DNA of 64,000 nt from an uncultured Clostridia bacterium (GTDB lineage: Bacteria; Bacillota; Clostridia; Oscillospirales; Ruminococcaceae): NCBI GenBank assembly GCA_944386455.1, contig CALXBC010000001.1, positions 62,001 through 126,000 on the forward strand, read 5' to 3'. Shown one piece after another: positions 8,571 through 13,012 of this stretch. The notes under the pieces were generated by a model, which was given only the letters and a program-made list of their open reading frames with translations, was not told where the DNA came from and did no database searches. Numbering within the stretch: the stretch's first letter is position 1; each line of letters starts with the position of its first letter. Position numbers and translations under genes: made by a program.

Positions 8571-8816
8571 TCAAAAACTGGAATATGCCGTTTTTACAGA
8601 TACACCGTCCAGCCGTCCCAGCTTCCCGGTCAGGGCGCTGATAATATCCTGTGGTGCATCCAATGCGATGCTGATGACAGAAATTCCCTTTGCCTTATAG
8701 GGAATCCCCATGCGCCCGATAATGTATGGGCTGTACTGGTGCAGCAGCTCGTTAAGCGGTGCCACGGAATCCGGATTCTCCACAATAACCGCCGCAATCG
8801 CAACCCTTGTTTCCAT
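8571..8816 (-). CDS. TM1266-type putative iron-only hydrogenase system regulator
   Basis: 81 residues with an ACT-like alpha/beta fold pattern: METRVAIAAVIVENP, a central YIIGRMGIPYK segment, and GKLGRLDGVSVKTAYS at the end. This matches the TM1266 family, small proteins encoded with [FeFe]-hydrogenase maturation genes and thought, without firm proof, to regulate them. I take the ATG at 8816 because GGAGGAAG lies 5 bases before it at 8821-8828; an ATG at 8834 would overlap the hydF stop and has no ribosome site. It is the last gene of the operon, 14 bases after hydF. Confidence 0.85.
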   Translation of the reverse strand: METRVAIAAVIVENPDSVAPLNELLHQYSPYIIGRMGIPYKAKGISVISIALDAPQDIISALTGKLGRLDGVSVKTAYSSF

Positions 8817-8830
8817 TTTGCTTCCTCCAT

Positions 8831-10030
8831 TCATTCTGCATCCAGCTGCTGCAGCAGCTGCGGAAAAACCGCAAGGCTCCGCCGCAGAATACCTTGCATA
8901 TAAGCGATCGTGATCCCGTAATTGGTAAACGGGACCCCACTGTCAATCGCGCATTTCATGCGGTATCTGACTTCCCGCTCATTGAGCATGCAGCCGCCGC
9001 AGTGGATAATCAATGCATACCGTGAAAGCTCTTCCGGGAATTCGGTGCCGGACACGGTCTCCAGCTTCAGCTCTTTACCCGTATACTGCCGCAGCCACCG
9101 TGGAATTTTGACGGTTCCGATATCATTGCACTGACGGTGATGCGTACAGCCCTCTGCAATCAGCACCGTGTCCCCGTCTTTCAGGGACTCTACCGCCTTG
9201 ACGCCCCGCACCGCAGTATCCAAAAACCCCTTATACCGTGCCATCAGAATGGAAAACGAGGTCAGCGGGACATCCTGCGGCGTGTCTGCGGCTGCCTTTG
9301 CAAAGACCTGACTGTCCGTGATCACCATAGCAGGACGGCTGTTCAGGCTTTCCAGCGCCCGGCTTAGCCCTGTTTCCTTCACCACGACCGCATATGCATC
9401 GGCATCCAGAACATCCCGCAGTGTTTGCTGCTGCGGCAAAATCAGCCTGCCCTTCGGCGCCGCCTCGTCGATCGGTGTCACCAGCACGACCAGATCAGAT
9501 GGCTTCAGCAAATCCCCCACAATACGGCGGCTGCTTTCCCCCGCTTTTGCCAATGCGCCCAGCCGCGCCTTAAGCGCCTGTACCCCTGCACCGGTTTTGG
9601 CACTGACGGCCAACGCGTCTGCCGGAACTGCCGCCGCATGATCCGCCTTGTTATATACGACCACACAGGGAATCTCTTTTTCCGCAATCCGCCGAAGCAG
9701 TTCTGTGTCGTCAGCAGTTTCCCCGGCTTCGGCGTCGATCACCATGACGGCGATATCTGTCTTGTTGAGCACCTGCTTTGCTTTTTTGACGCGGAGTGCG
9801 CCAAGTTCGCCCTCATCATCAAACCCCGGGGTGTCAATGATCATGACCGGCCCCAGCGGAAGCAGCTCCATTGATTTATAAACCGGGTCGGTAGTTGTTC
9901 CTTTGGTATCAGAGACTACCGCAAGATCCTGACCGGTCACGGCGTTCACAAGGCTGGACTTTCCCGCGTTGCGTCTGCCGAAAAATCCAATATGAATCCG
10001 GTTGGCCGACGGTGTGTCATTTAAACCCAT
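8831..10030 (-). CDS. hydF: [FeFe]-hydrogenase H-cluster maturation GTPase HydF
   Basis: 399 residues. HydF is the scaffold on which the 2Fe subcluster is assembled and from which it is passed to apo-hydrogenase. The N-terminal GTPase domain shows G1 (GRRNAGKSS, residues 18-26), G3 (DTPG, 66-69) and G4 (NKAD, 127-130). The C-terminal part has the cluster ligands in the family pattern CxH ... HCxxC: Cys295-Thr-His297 and His343-Cys344-Gly-Gly-Cys347. AAGGAG precedes the ATG at 10030 by 9 bases. The gene lies between hydG and the TM1266-type gene in one operon. Confidence 0.96.
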   Translation of the reverse strand: MGLNDTPSANRIHIGFFGRRNAGKSSLVNAVTGQDLAVVSDTKGTTTDPVYKSMELLPLGPVMIIDTPGFDDEGELGALRVKKAKQVLNKTDIAVMVIDAEAGETADDTELLRRIAEKEIPCVVVYNKADHAAAVPADALAVSAKTGAGVQALKARLGALAKAGESSRRIVGDLLKPSDLVVLVTPIDEAAPKGRLILPQQQTLRDVLDADAYAVVVKETGLSRALESLNSRPAMVITDSQVFAKAAADTPQDVPLTSFSILMARYKGFLDTAVRGVKAVESLKDGDTVLIAEGCTHHRQCNDIGTVKIPRWLRQYTGKELKLETVSGTEFPEELSRYALIIHCGGCMLNEREVRYRMKCAIDSGVPFTNYGITIAYMQGILRRSLAVFPQLLQQLDAE

Positions 10031-10065: not shown

Positions 10066-11511
10066 TTAAAAACGGAAGTCCCGTATGCCCTGTTCAATTT
10101 TTGCAAGGTGATCCTTACATACCTCGCGTACCTTTTCCTTTGGAATGTTGTCAAGCTCCGCCTGAATCAAGGCCTCGCCGATCGCACGGGTCTCCTCTCC
10201 CGCATAATCCATCAGATATTCTTTCAGGGTCATCAGCGCATTCGGGTGGCAGCAGTTCTGGATCTGCCCTGATTTGCACAAAGACATGAAGCGGTCGCCG
10301 GTCCTTCCTTCCCGATAACATGCTGTACAGAACGACGGAATATAGCCCAGCTCCATCAGCCAGCGCACAACCTCATCCAGCGTGCGCTGGTCGGACACGT
10401 CGAACTGCTCGGTATCGGTCGGACGCTCCTCTTCCGTATAGCCGCCGACCGAGGTGCGGGAACCGCCGCTGATCTGGGAAACGCCAAGACGGATCACCCG
10501 TTCCCTGACTGACTGGCTTTCTCTGGTGGAAATAATCATTCCTGTATAGGGCACGGCAATTCGAATCAACGCACAGATCTTTGCAAAGATATCATCGCTG
10601 ATGCCGTTGTCAAAAGCAGTGGGGTCGATATCATCGGCGTGCTTGATCCGCGGTACACTGATGGTGTGCGGTCCAACGCCATGGACTGCTTCCAGATGCT
10701 CGGCATGCATCAGCAATCCGGCAAATTCATAGCGATACAGCTCCAGCCCGAACAGCACGCCCAATCCGACATCGTCGATACCGCCTTCCATGGCGCGGTC
10801 CATCGCTTCGGTGTGATAGTTATAATCATGCTTCGGTCCGGTCGGGTGAAGCTTCAGATAGCTCTCCTTGTGATAGGTTTCCTGAAACAGAATATAGGTT
10901 CCGATCCCGGCCTCTTTCAGCTTTCGGTAATTTTCCACCGTTGTTGCCGCAATATTGACATTGACCCGGCGGATCGCCCCGTTTTTATGCTTAATGGAGT
11001 ATATGGTATGGATACATTCCAAAATGTACTCGATCGGATTCATCTTTGGATCTTCCCCGGATTCAATGGCCAGCCGCTTGTGCCCCATATCCTGTAATGC
11101 GATGACCTCTTTTGCCACTTCCTCCTGGGTCAGCTTTTTCCGCGGAATATGGTGATTTTTTTTATGATAAGGACAGTAGACACAGCCATTGACGCAATAA
11201 TTGGAAAGATACAGCGGAGCAAAAATGACAATACGGTTTCCGTAAAATGCCTTTTTGATTTCCTCTGCCAGCGCATACATCTGCTCCACCTTTTCGGGAA
11301 TGTCACAGGCCAGCAGGACCGACGCTTCCCGATGCGTAAGCCCCGAGCAGAAGGTCCCCTTTTCCGTCACGCGGGGACGCGCCTTTTCCAAGATGCTGTC
11401 GATCAATGCCACGTTATTCTTATTCTCATCTGCATACCGCAGTGTGTCAAGAATCTCCTCGTGATTGATAAATTCATCTGCACATAAAGACTTTGGATTG
11501 TAAGCAAACAT
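10066..11511 (-). CDS. hydG: [FeFe]-hydrogenase maturase HydG (tyrosine lyase, radical SAM)
   Basis: 481 residues from the chosen start. HydG cleaves tyrosine to give the CO and CN ligands of the H-cluster, delivered on an Fe-Cys synthon. The radical SAM motif is NYCVNGCVYC (CX3CX2C, about residues 106-113), and the C-terminal auxiliary cluster site is present as CTAC followed 22 residues later by another Cys (near SGQIQNC). I start at the ATG at 11511 because AAAGGAAA lies about 8 bases upstream; ten more codons can be read upstream but lack a ribosome site. hydF follows after 35 bases and hydE precedes. Confidence 0.96.
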   Translation of the reverse strand: MFAYNPKSLCADEFINHEEILDTLRYADENKNNVALIDSILEKARPRVTEKGTFCSGLTHREASVLLACDIPEKVEQMYALAEEIKKAFYGNRIVIFAPLYLSNYCVNGCVYCPYHKKNHHIPRKKLTQEEVAKEVIALQDMGHKRLAIESGEDPKMNPIEYILECIHTIYSIKHKNGAIRRVNVNIAATTVENYRKLKEAGIGTYILFQETYHKESYLKLHPTGPKHDYNYHTEAMDRAMEGGIDDVGLGVLFGLELYRYEFAGLLMHAEHLEAVHGVGPHTISVPRIKHADDIDPTAFDNGISDDIFAKICALIRIAVPYTGMIISTRESQSVRERVIRLGVSQISGGSRTSVGGYTEEERPTDTEQFDVSDQRTLDEVVRWLMELGYIPSFCTACYREGRTGDRFMSLCKSGQIQNCCHPNALMTLKEYLMDYAGEETRAIGEALIQAELDNIPKEKVREVCKDHLAKIEQGIRDFRF

Positions 11512-11592
11512 GTTGAAATTTCCTTTCTTTCGGGTCAGCAAACGACTTTCCCGTTGGTATGGTTTATGCTAAAGGGAACGGCAGACCGCCCT

Positions 11593-12645
11593 TTAAATCA
11601 ATTGCCTGAAATCGCCGCGATCAGTCACGATCCGGCATCCGATACTTGCAAACCGCTCTTTCAGCCGCTGAATGCTTTCCGCGGCTTCATCACCGGTGCA
11701 AAGCTTATTGTTGTAAAGCAAGTATTTTTTTCGCACCGCAGCAGGTGATAAATTCGGCATCACAACATTTGCCCCGGCAAGGATTCCCTTTTCTCTTCCC
11801 TCCGGGTCCAGTGTTCCCAGCGCTGTAGTCGCAGGAAGCAGAGCATTCGGCAGCATCAGCCGCAGCAGTCCCAGCATAAACAGGGTCAGTTCGACCGTTC
11901 CTGCCGGCTGATTGCCAAAGGGCGTGTCCTTATGAGGAATAAACGGCCCGATTCCCACCATCTGCGGATTCAGTTCCTTTAAAAAAAGCATGTCCTCCGC
12001 CAGATTCTCCGCTGTCTGGCCGGGGGAACCAACCATAAAGCCGCTCCCGGTCTGATACCCAATCCGCTTTAGCGTGTAAAGACATTCCTTGCGGTTGGAA
12101 AGCTGAAGCTCCGGGGGATGCAGCACCGCATAGTGCCGCTCCGAAGCAGTTTCATGCCGCAGCAGATAACGGTCGGCACCCGCTTCAAACAAACATCGGT
12201 AGCTCTCCTTGCTCCGCTCCCCCAGCGATAGCGTGACCGCACAGTCAGGATAGTTGTCTTTGATATTCTGAATGATACTGCACAGCACATTGTCGGTATA
12301 AAACGGGTCTTCCCCGCCCTGAAGCACAAAAGTCCGAAAGCCCAAATCATATCCCGTATCGACACAGCCGAGAATTTCTTCTCTGGACAAGCGGTAACGC
12401 TGGGCGCAGCGGTTGCTCCGCCGGATCCCGCAGTAATAGCAGTCATTTTTACAATAACTTGAAATCTCAATCAGCCCGCGGATATAGACCATATCCCCGT
12501 AAACCGCATGGCGGATCTCCCGTGCTGCTGCAAACAGATACTGCGCACTGTCATCATCCCGATTACGGATAAGTCGTATCCATTCGTCTCTGGATAACGT
12601 ATGATTCTTTCGGAGCTTGTCAATCAATTCCCGCTCGTTTAGCAA
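11593..12645 (-). CDS. hydE: [FeFe]-hydrogenase maturase HydE (radical SAM)
   Basis: About 350 residues from the proposed TTG at 12643-12645. HydE acts on the HydG product during assembly of the dithiomethylamine bridge. The radical SAM motif is SSYCKNDCYYC (CX3CX2C, about residues 65-72), placed as in Thermotoga HydE. The open frame extends to an ATG at 12696, but that ATG lies inside the right-hand arm of an intrinsic terminator, and a GGAAGGGAG ribosome site lies at 12657-12665, between the terminator and the TTG (spacing about 11). The shorter form also matches the family length (near 350). First gene of the hydE-G-F-TM1266 operon, behind a structured leader. Confidence 0.93.
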   Translation of the reverse strand: MLNERELIDKLRKNHTLSRDEWIRLIRNRDDDSAQYLFAAAREIRHAVYGDMVYIRGLIEISSYCKNDCYYCGIRRSNRCAQRYRLSREEILGCVDTGYDLGFRTFVLQGGEDPFYTDNVLCSIIQNIKDNYPDCAVTLSLGERSKESYRCLFEAGADRYLLRHETASERHYAVLHPPELQLSNRKECLYTLKRIGYQTGSGFMVGSPGQTAENLAEDMLFLKELNPQMVGIGPFIPHKDTPFGNQPAGTVELTLFMLGLLRLMLPNALLPATTALGTLDPEGREKGILAGANVVMPNLSPAAVRKKYLLYNNKLCTGDEAAESIQRLKERFASIGCRIVTDRGDFRQLI

Positions 12646-12684: not shown

Positions 12685-12713
12685 AAAAAATCCCATGCCA
12701 AAGAAAGCATGGG
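12685..12713 (-). terminator. Intrinsic terminator (attenuator) in the hydE leader
   Basis: On the minus strand CCCATGC, an 8-nt loop and GCATGGG (12692-12698 with 12707-12713) are followed by A and six T. It sits between the hydE promoter and the hydE ribosome site, so it would stop transcription before the operon unless an alternative fold prevents it. Confidence 0.75.
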
Positions 12714-12829
12714 ACCAAGAGATACGACACAGCTTGCACCTGCCATATTGATCTTGACAATACTTCTTTCGGCTCAGAAATTCTTTACCATCAGAAATTT
12801 TATCATATAGAAAAATTTATCCGAAACAA
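12714..12829 (-). promoter_or_regulatory. hydE operon promoter and structured 5' leader (candidate riboswitch)
   Basis: Minus-strand promoter TTGTTT (12824-12829), 16-bp spacer, TATGAT (12802-12807), giving a transcript start near 12795. The leader to the terminator is about 110 nt and can fold: GCC ... GGC closes an internal loop (GAAAGAA) and a GTATTG / CAATAT hairpin (about 12743-12778), followed by a CAG ... CTG hairpin. I could not assign it to a known riboswitch class by eye. Confidence 0.5.
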
Positions 12830-12863: not shown

Positions 12864-12912
12864 ACGGTATGAACCTGGACATTTCATAAAGGATGTTCCA
12901 GGTTCATACCGT
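12864..12912 (-). terminator. Terminator of the tRNA-Ser gene
   Basis: 15-bp perfect stem (ACGGTATGAACCTGG arm at 12864-12878, complement at 12898-12912), extended by ACAT/ATGT with one bulge. It begins 7 bases after the tRNA CCA end and is followed on the minus strand by TTGTTTGC. Confidence 0.8.
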
Positions 12913-12919
12913 CGCTCGT

Positions 12920-13012
12920 TGGCGGAGAAGGAGGGATTCGAACCCTCGATGCGCTATCAACGCATACACGAGTTCCAGTCGTGCGCCATAAACCGGGCTA
13001 GGCGACTTCTCC
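12920..13012 (-). tRNA. tRNA-Ser (anticodon GGA)
   Basis: 93 nt. Acceptor stem GGAGAAG pairs with CTTCTCC, discriminator G, and the CCA end is encoded (12920-12922 on the plus strand is TGG). The anticodon stem CACGA/TCGTG holds loop CTGGAAC, anticodon GGA, reading UCC/UCU codons. The long variable arm (ATGCG ... CGCAT) is typical of tRNA-Ser, and the T-loop GGTTCGAATCC is intact. Confidence 0.97.

Follow-up and report, generated by a model that had tools for sequence, protein, structure and literature searches.

The minus strand of the window, by which we mean the whole 64,000-nucleotide stretch of DNA analysed here, carries a hydE-hydG-hydF-TM1266 operon that is recognized by the profiles TIGR03956, TIGR03955, TIGR03918 and TIGR03959. 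Its leader, of about 115-125 nt, lies between hydE and a tRNA gene with its own long hairpin, and the features of the locus are as follows:

8571-8834, minus strand: TM1266-family gene, last in the operon, proposed RNA-binding regulator (TIGR03959, E 2e-33)
8831-10030, minus strand: hydF (TIGR03918, E 1.3e-169)
10066-11541, minus strand: hydG, given as its longest frame, with ATG 11511 the likely start (TIGR03955, E 1.1e-280)
11523-11560, minus strand: second, weaker twin-CUGA hairpin, adjoining the hydG Shine-Dalgarno sequence AAAGGA (model R2, 21.6 bits, E 0.098)
11593-12645, minus strand: hydE, from its probable TTG start (TIGR03956, E 4.9e-175)
12689-12716, minus strand: intrinsic terminator, 11 pairs with a T-run immediately 3' (terminator search)
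12691-12710, minus strand: 3' side of the antiterminator, made up of the terminator 5' arm, its loop and the first part of its 3' arm (duplex, complementarity)
12716-12756, minus strand: intervening variable hairpin (minimum-free-energy fold; no sequence conservation seen in relatives)
12760-12779, minus strand: 3' strand of the twin-CUGA hairpin, forming the 5' side of the antiterminator (-17.6 kcal/mol when paired with 12691-12710)
12762-12797, minus strand: twin-CUGA hairpin, proposed regulator-binding element (model R1, 38.7 bits, E 1.1e-6; strict scan; sequence-only pattern)
12923-13012: tRNA gene upstream of the hydE leader

The product of the last gene scores above the cut-offs of both family models (114 bits against TIGR03959, curated cut-off 60.8; 107.4 bits against PF21699, cut-off 27) and matches 2nzc (E 1.1e-12). 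A long hairpin with a T-rich tail directly after the tRNA gene (12865-12910, minus strand) is probably the terminator of that gene.

The initial annotation had described a foldable leader that ends in an intrinsic terminator before hydE, and both parts of this description hold. At -40.1 kcal/mol the fold of the 125-nt leader is more stable than those of shuffled sequences (-26.9 +/- 3.3 kcal/mol, z -4.07), and its minimum-free-energy structure runs from the twin-CUGA hairpin through the variable hairpin to the terminator at 12716-12689. ATG 12696, with which the longest hydE frame opens, does sit within a terminator arm, the 3' one. The suspicion that an automated start call would be wrong here is probably justified, because within this frame the match to the HydE profile TIGR03956 sets in only at residue 24, and an in-frame TTG at 12645 is preceded by AAGGGAG (12663-12657), which resembles a Shine-Dalgarno sequence; judged from these sequence features, TTG 12645 rather than ATG 12696 is the probable start of hydE. 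The promoter placed before the leader stands in part: a weak TTGTTT-16 nt-TATGAT, ending a few nucleotides before the hairpin, can be seen by eye, whereas the consensus promoter scan reported none at the hydE leader and located a strong promoter at 13052-13024, preceding the upstream tRNA gene. Among 86 terminator-type hairpins, 32 have a hexamer resembling a -10 element that ends within 20 nt of them, only a modest excess over the 20-27 counted in the other 20-nt bins. As in transcription attenuators in general, the intrinsic terminator is located between the (weak) promoter and hydE.

Direct DNA similarity between the window leader and other hydE upstream regions gave little (best non-self match L070, E 6e-4), and the family was recognized after that by comparing leader structures by eye. 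The conserved portion is a hairpin of about 33 nt with the consensus CUGA-N4-RAAG-loop-CUGA-N4'-AAAG, which we name the twin-CUGA hairpin. It is two-fold symmetric, with one half-site occurring twice, back to back, and a 4-bp stem flanked at either end by a GA/AA internal loop closed by CU/AG; the stem sequence is free and the internal loops are strongly conserved. The window copy reads UUUCU-GA-UGGU-AA-AG-AAUUU-CU-GA-GCCG-AA-AGAAG. Conserved structure in the leaders of relatives had been named in the initial annotation as a check on its reading, and such structure was found among the 110 hydE loci that we compared, 30 of them from relatives (the window's own locus, L002, included) and 80 from species genomes. 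A strict scan demanding pairing returned 21 matches in 643,511 bases (20 without L001, a duplicate of the window locus), all upstream of hydE and on the same strand, while five shuffled sets gave 0, 1, 0, 0 and 0. When the sequence pattern alone was used and no pairing was demanded, 32 matches were obtained in the 110 loci, every one upstream of hydE on the same strand and none elsewhere in these loci, and N4 and N4' proved complementary at four of four positions in 24 of them and at three of four in the other 8. The covariance model R1, built from 22 sequences with the window leader among them, was run on 100 of the 110 loci and gave 64 matches, all on the hydE strand. Of these, 6 come after hydE and 58 precede it, the latter in 56 loci, 36 of which contributed nothing to the R1 training set. 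Pair counts over the 98 matches of alignment A3, drawn from 85 loci hand-picked among those with model matches, gave 95.6% of cells paired and 239 double changes against 72 +/- 6.5 in shuffled alignments, although such counts are biased because alignment A2 was selected for N4 pairing and A3 was fitted to the model. The strict scan, the sequence-only pattern and the comparison of tails with terminators described below are therefore the fairer tests.

The initial annotation could match the leader to no known class, and the search of Rfam 15 agrees: at the gathering cut-off the window yields only tRNA and no family matches its leader, nothing matches in 12 relative loci, and among 20 loci there are only tRNAs and one Gut-1 RNA, all in L025 and outside the leader. 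That Gut-1 RNA (RF01706; L025 3732-3808, minus strand) lies next to two tRNA genes near the hyd locus. Among bacterial attenuators the PyrR binding site RF00515 came closest when E-value mode was used, scoring 18.0 bits for the window leader and 27.2 bits for that of L048; it was rejected since both scores are well under the gathering threshold of 54. A NiCo-type or other known riboswitch, considered for the L034, L036 and L048 leaders, was dropped after Rfam gave no match. A leader-peptide attenuator, suggested by a 5-codon frame seen by eye in the hairpin, was set aside because that frame does not belong to the shared motif. It is very likely that the leader is a real and uncatalogued attenuator RNA.

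A terminator-like hairpin follows within 170 nt for 88 of 120 distinct twin-CUGA hairpins, against 2-7 of 120 in shuffled sequence. The hairpin 3' strand and tail are complementary to the 5' arm and loop of the same leader's terminator, with a mean tail-terminator duplex of -13.9 kcal/mol compared with -10.16 +/- 0.30 kcal/mol for swapped terminators (200 permutations, best -11.2). In the window this antiterminator duplex comprises 18 pairs. When the growing transcript is folded, the hairpin is kept until position 12705, a partial rearrangement appears at 12700, the antiterminator forms at 12698 and 12695, and from 12692 onward the hairpin and the terminator are present together. The hairpin and the antiterminator are thus mutually exclusive by computation, as expected of an attenuator, and antitermination must be kinetic since the terminator fold beats the antiterminator in the full transcript. 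The remaining 32 hairpins have no terminator, and by our reading of the list 23 of them lie about 30 nt or less from a start codon, mostly before hydG, with a Shine-Dalgarno sequence in, or directly after, the hairpin 3' strand; at such a hairpin a switch would act on translation. Taken with its conserved element and genomic placement, the tail-terminator complementarity strongly supports the earlier suggestion of an attenuator that controls H-cluster assembly.

The reach of the element is broader than the initial annotation had said. In the 2.1-Mb window genome the hydE leader is the top match of R1 (at the score listed above; it is in the training set), and the hairpin of the hydG leader, a weaker second copy outside the training set, is the only other match of R2 at E <= 5. 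Scanning 291 genomes of the class gave matches in 69 at E <= 0.1, and 40 matches in 38 genomes at E <= 1e-3, of which 36 lie, on inspection, directly before TM1266, hydE or hydG. The other four precede an aspA-hydF pair (G149; aspA named from sequence alone), a nifHDK-like operon with siderophore-type ABC genes and hydE as its last gene (G128) and an SsuA-like ABC operon (G217), or fall within a coding frame (G175); many of the weaker matches (E 0.001-0.1) are off-target. Across the phylum 32 of 398 genomes match R2 at E <= 0.01, and among the 28 loci inspected 22 are before TM1266, hydE or hydG and 6 are elsewhere. Of those 6, five are within open frames of at least 120 codons (L207 being antisense to one) and L210 is a short repeat; all six had been excluded from the 120-hairpin terminator analysis before the open frames were checked.

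TM1266 is the gene that most closely accompanies the element. It is present in 179 of the 291 class genomes and HydG in 187, and among the 38 genomes with a match at E <= 1e-3 TM1266 occurs in 35 (Fisher p 1e-5, kinship ignored) and HydG in 31 (p 0.02). The three without TM1266 are G175, in which the match falls in a coding frame, G074, in which the contig ends 0.3 kb past hydG, and G250, a genome that is 93% complete. The co-location of hairpin and TM1266 is partly due to operon structure, given that hydE follows shortly after a TM1266-like gene in 67 of the 110 hydE loci. Fifteen loci have a hydE leader that no TM1266-like gene closely precedes, and for every one of them TM1266 is found elsewhere in the genome, a result that is weak on its own since 38 of the 46 genomes in the same comparison carry TM1266 anyway. 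TM1266 and HydG occur together in 146 genomes, but a whole-genome hairpin match at E <= 1e-3 is seen in no more than 28 of these; in many of them the hairpin must therefore either have drifted out of reach of the model or be missing. The strongest point for TM1266 as the reader is that four genomes of 98-100% completeness (G073, G248, G290 and G115) carry the leader before TM1266 and lack HydE, HydF and HydG at thresholds of 1e-40 (1e-60 for HydG). There the leader and TM1266 are followed by an ABC transporter in G073, G248 and G290 and by a small membrane protein in G115.

The family is annotated as "iron-only hydrogenase system regulator, putative" and a structure has been solved. The predicted structure of TM1266 (mean pLDDT 93.5) is beta-alpha-beta-beta-alpha-beta with no DNA-binding domain, and its matches include the TM1266 structure 2nzc, at E 2.9e-10, and the C-terminal domains of NikR, at E 1.6e-5 or weaker. 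The ACT-like fold of the NikR C-terminal domain is a symmetric oligomer. TM1266 differs from NikR in lacking the DNA-binding domain, and no RNA-binding function is annotated for it in the family libraries searched. The combination of an ACT-like, symmetric-oligomer fold, no DNA-binding domain and a near-symmetric hairpin before its gene makes TM1266 the best candidate, and on balance we favor the view that the hairpin is read by TM1266.

We propose a model for the hydE leader in which the twin-CUGA hairpin would act as the receptor of a hairpin/antiterminator/terminator switch. A free hairpin would release its 3' strand for pairing with the terminator 5' arm and loop, allowing the polymerase to read into hydE-hydG-hydF-TM1266. 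When the hairpin is held, the antiterminator would be blocked, the terminator would form and the operon would be off, a direction of control that we infer. The second hairpin, at hydG, adjoins the Shine-Dalgarno sequence, which would be hidden in the held state. The holder would most likely be the TM1266 protein, which, being encoded in the operon, would serve as a feedback regulator, and it may answer a small signal tied to H-cluster assembly. We consider it likely, with a fair measure of doubt, that the hydE leader is an uncatalogued attenuator whose hairpin is held by TM1266, a symmetric NikR-C-like ACT protein, with the held state being off. The wider reading has slightly better than an even chance in our estimation: that the TM1266 family comprises a new group of RNA-binding attenuation proteins, in which a free-standing NikR-C-like ACT domain reads the twin-CUGA hairpin and couples hydE, hydG, aspA-hydF, the nifHDK-like/siderophore-type cluster and sulfonate-type and other transporter operons to one small signal through termination or Shine-Dalgarno masking.

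The proposed arrangement has precedents among protein-dependent leaders. PyrR attenuators of pyr operons place a protein-binding hairpin, an antiterminator and a terminator in the leader and have the regulator encoded in the operon, a layout that the hydE leader shares, but the scores against RF00515 are sub-threshold and the conserved loop, the protein and the genes are different here. The RAT antiterminators read by BglG, SacY and LicT are near-symmetric hairpins of about 30 nt with two internal loops, recognized by a homodimer, and the twin-CUGA hairpin resembles them in size and form; however, the RAT overlaps the terminator and leads to antitermination when bound, whereas the twin-CUGA hairpin is separate from the terminator, precedes hyd genes and would lead to termination when held.

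The initial annotation had offered either a riboswitch or a protein-dependent attenuator, and of these the second is now favored because the element accompanies TM1266 even in genomes without HydE, HydF and HydG. As a riboswitch, the hairpin itself would bind a small molecule or metal ion at two equal sites and TM1266 would be a co-regulated enzyme or sensor of the same pathway. This would account for the strongly conserved internal loops, the tandem copies in some leaders and the transporter operons among the targets; small aptamers do exist among RNAs, and mutually exclusive antiterminators and terminators are also found in metabolite riboswitches with transcriptional expression platforms, from which the leaders searched differ in matching no Rfam class and in having a protein companion. 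We nevertheless regard a riboswitch as rather unlikely, as the conserved part is limited to a hairpin of some 33 nt with a free stem sequence and TM1266 is nearly always in the genome, even where HydE, HydF and HydG are missing. Recognition of the hairpin by some other RNA-binding protein that most of these bacteria possess is improbable: a two-fold-symmetric hairpin would suit many dimers and TM1266 has the annotation gap mentioned above, but the element tracks hyd and TM1266 genes and not a general regulon. It is very improbable, and already disfavored, that the site is a DNA operator whose conserved CTGA..AAAG copies serve a DNA-binding protein as direct repeats, or simply a constitutive terminator that folds by chance, given that N4 and N4' are complementary though unconserved, that all 64 R1 matches are on the strand of the gene and that the tails complement their terminators.

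The targets of the element comprise H-cluster assembly, aspartate ammonia-lyase, siderophore-type transport together with nifHDK-like genes, and ABC transporters that are SsuA-like or unclassified. As the signal, a metal would fit these targets and so would a sulfur/nitrogen precursor, and we make no choice between them. To our knowledge, the control of [FeFe]-hydrogenase active-site assembly in anaerobes is poorly known. In the one paper collection searched we found no description of the hydE leader or of a TM1266 mechanism. One paper reports aspartate ammonia-lyase as a nitrogen source for the H-cluster bridge (PMC11736057), and two others include TM1266 homologues, that of Thermotoga neapolitana in an expression table with hydE and hydG from a CO2 experiment (PMC7039931) and that of Clostridioides difficile among expression data (PMC11633334); the terms looked for were not found in a fourth (PMC9431212). 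A small, previously uncatalogued RNA switch precedes H-cluster assembly genes in many anaerobic bacteria, with TM1266 as its constant companion and probable reader. The conserved RNA target before its own operon makes TM1266 function directly testable, the leader offers a reporter for its signal, and the element provides a genome-wide marker of the TM1266 regulon that extends to transporter and nifHDK-like operons whose assignment is otherwise difficult.

Seven leaders (L120, L107, L109, L160, L163, L086 and L068) carry two tandem twin-CUGA hairpins, possibly for cooperative binding. In the leaders of L034, L036, L043 and L048 another conserved hairpin (CCAGACCACAAGGAnnnCCUGAAGGGnACGGUGCAGC), which may be a second copy that has diverged, separates the first one from the terminator. 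Behind the leaders in L220 (G199) and L185 (G128), NifH-like, nitrogenase-component-1-like and siderophore-type ABC genes form one operon. An ABC transporter operon follows the leader in L186 (G217), L187 (G240), L188 (G073), L222 (G248) and L223 (G290), with TM1266 as its first gene in G248, G290 and G073; two of the five substrate-binding proteins are SsuA/NMT1-like and three have no Pfam or NCBIfam match. In L221 (G115) the leader and TM1266 are followed by a 171-aa membrane protein that by eye resembles an ECF transporter S component, with no family match, and genes resembling, again by eye, those of an NADP-reducing hydrogenase adjoin in this genome without HydE, HydF or HydG.
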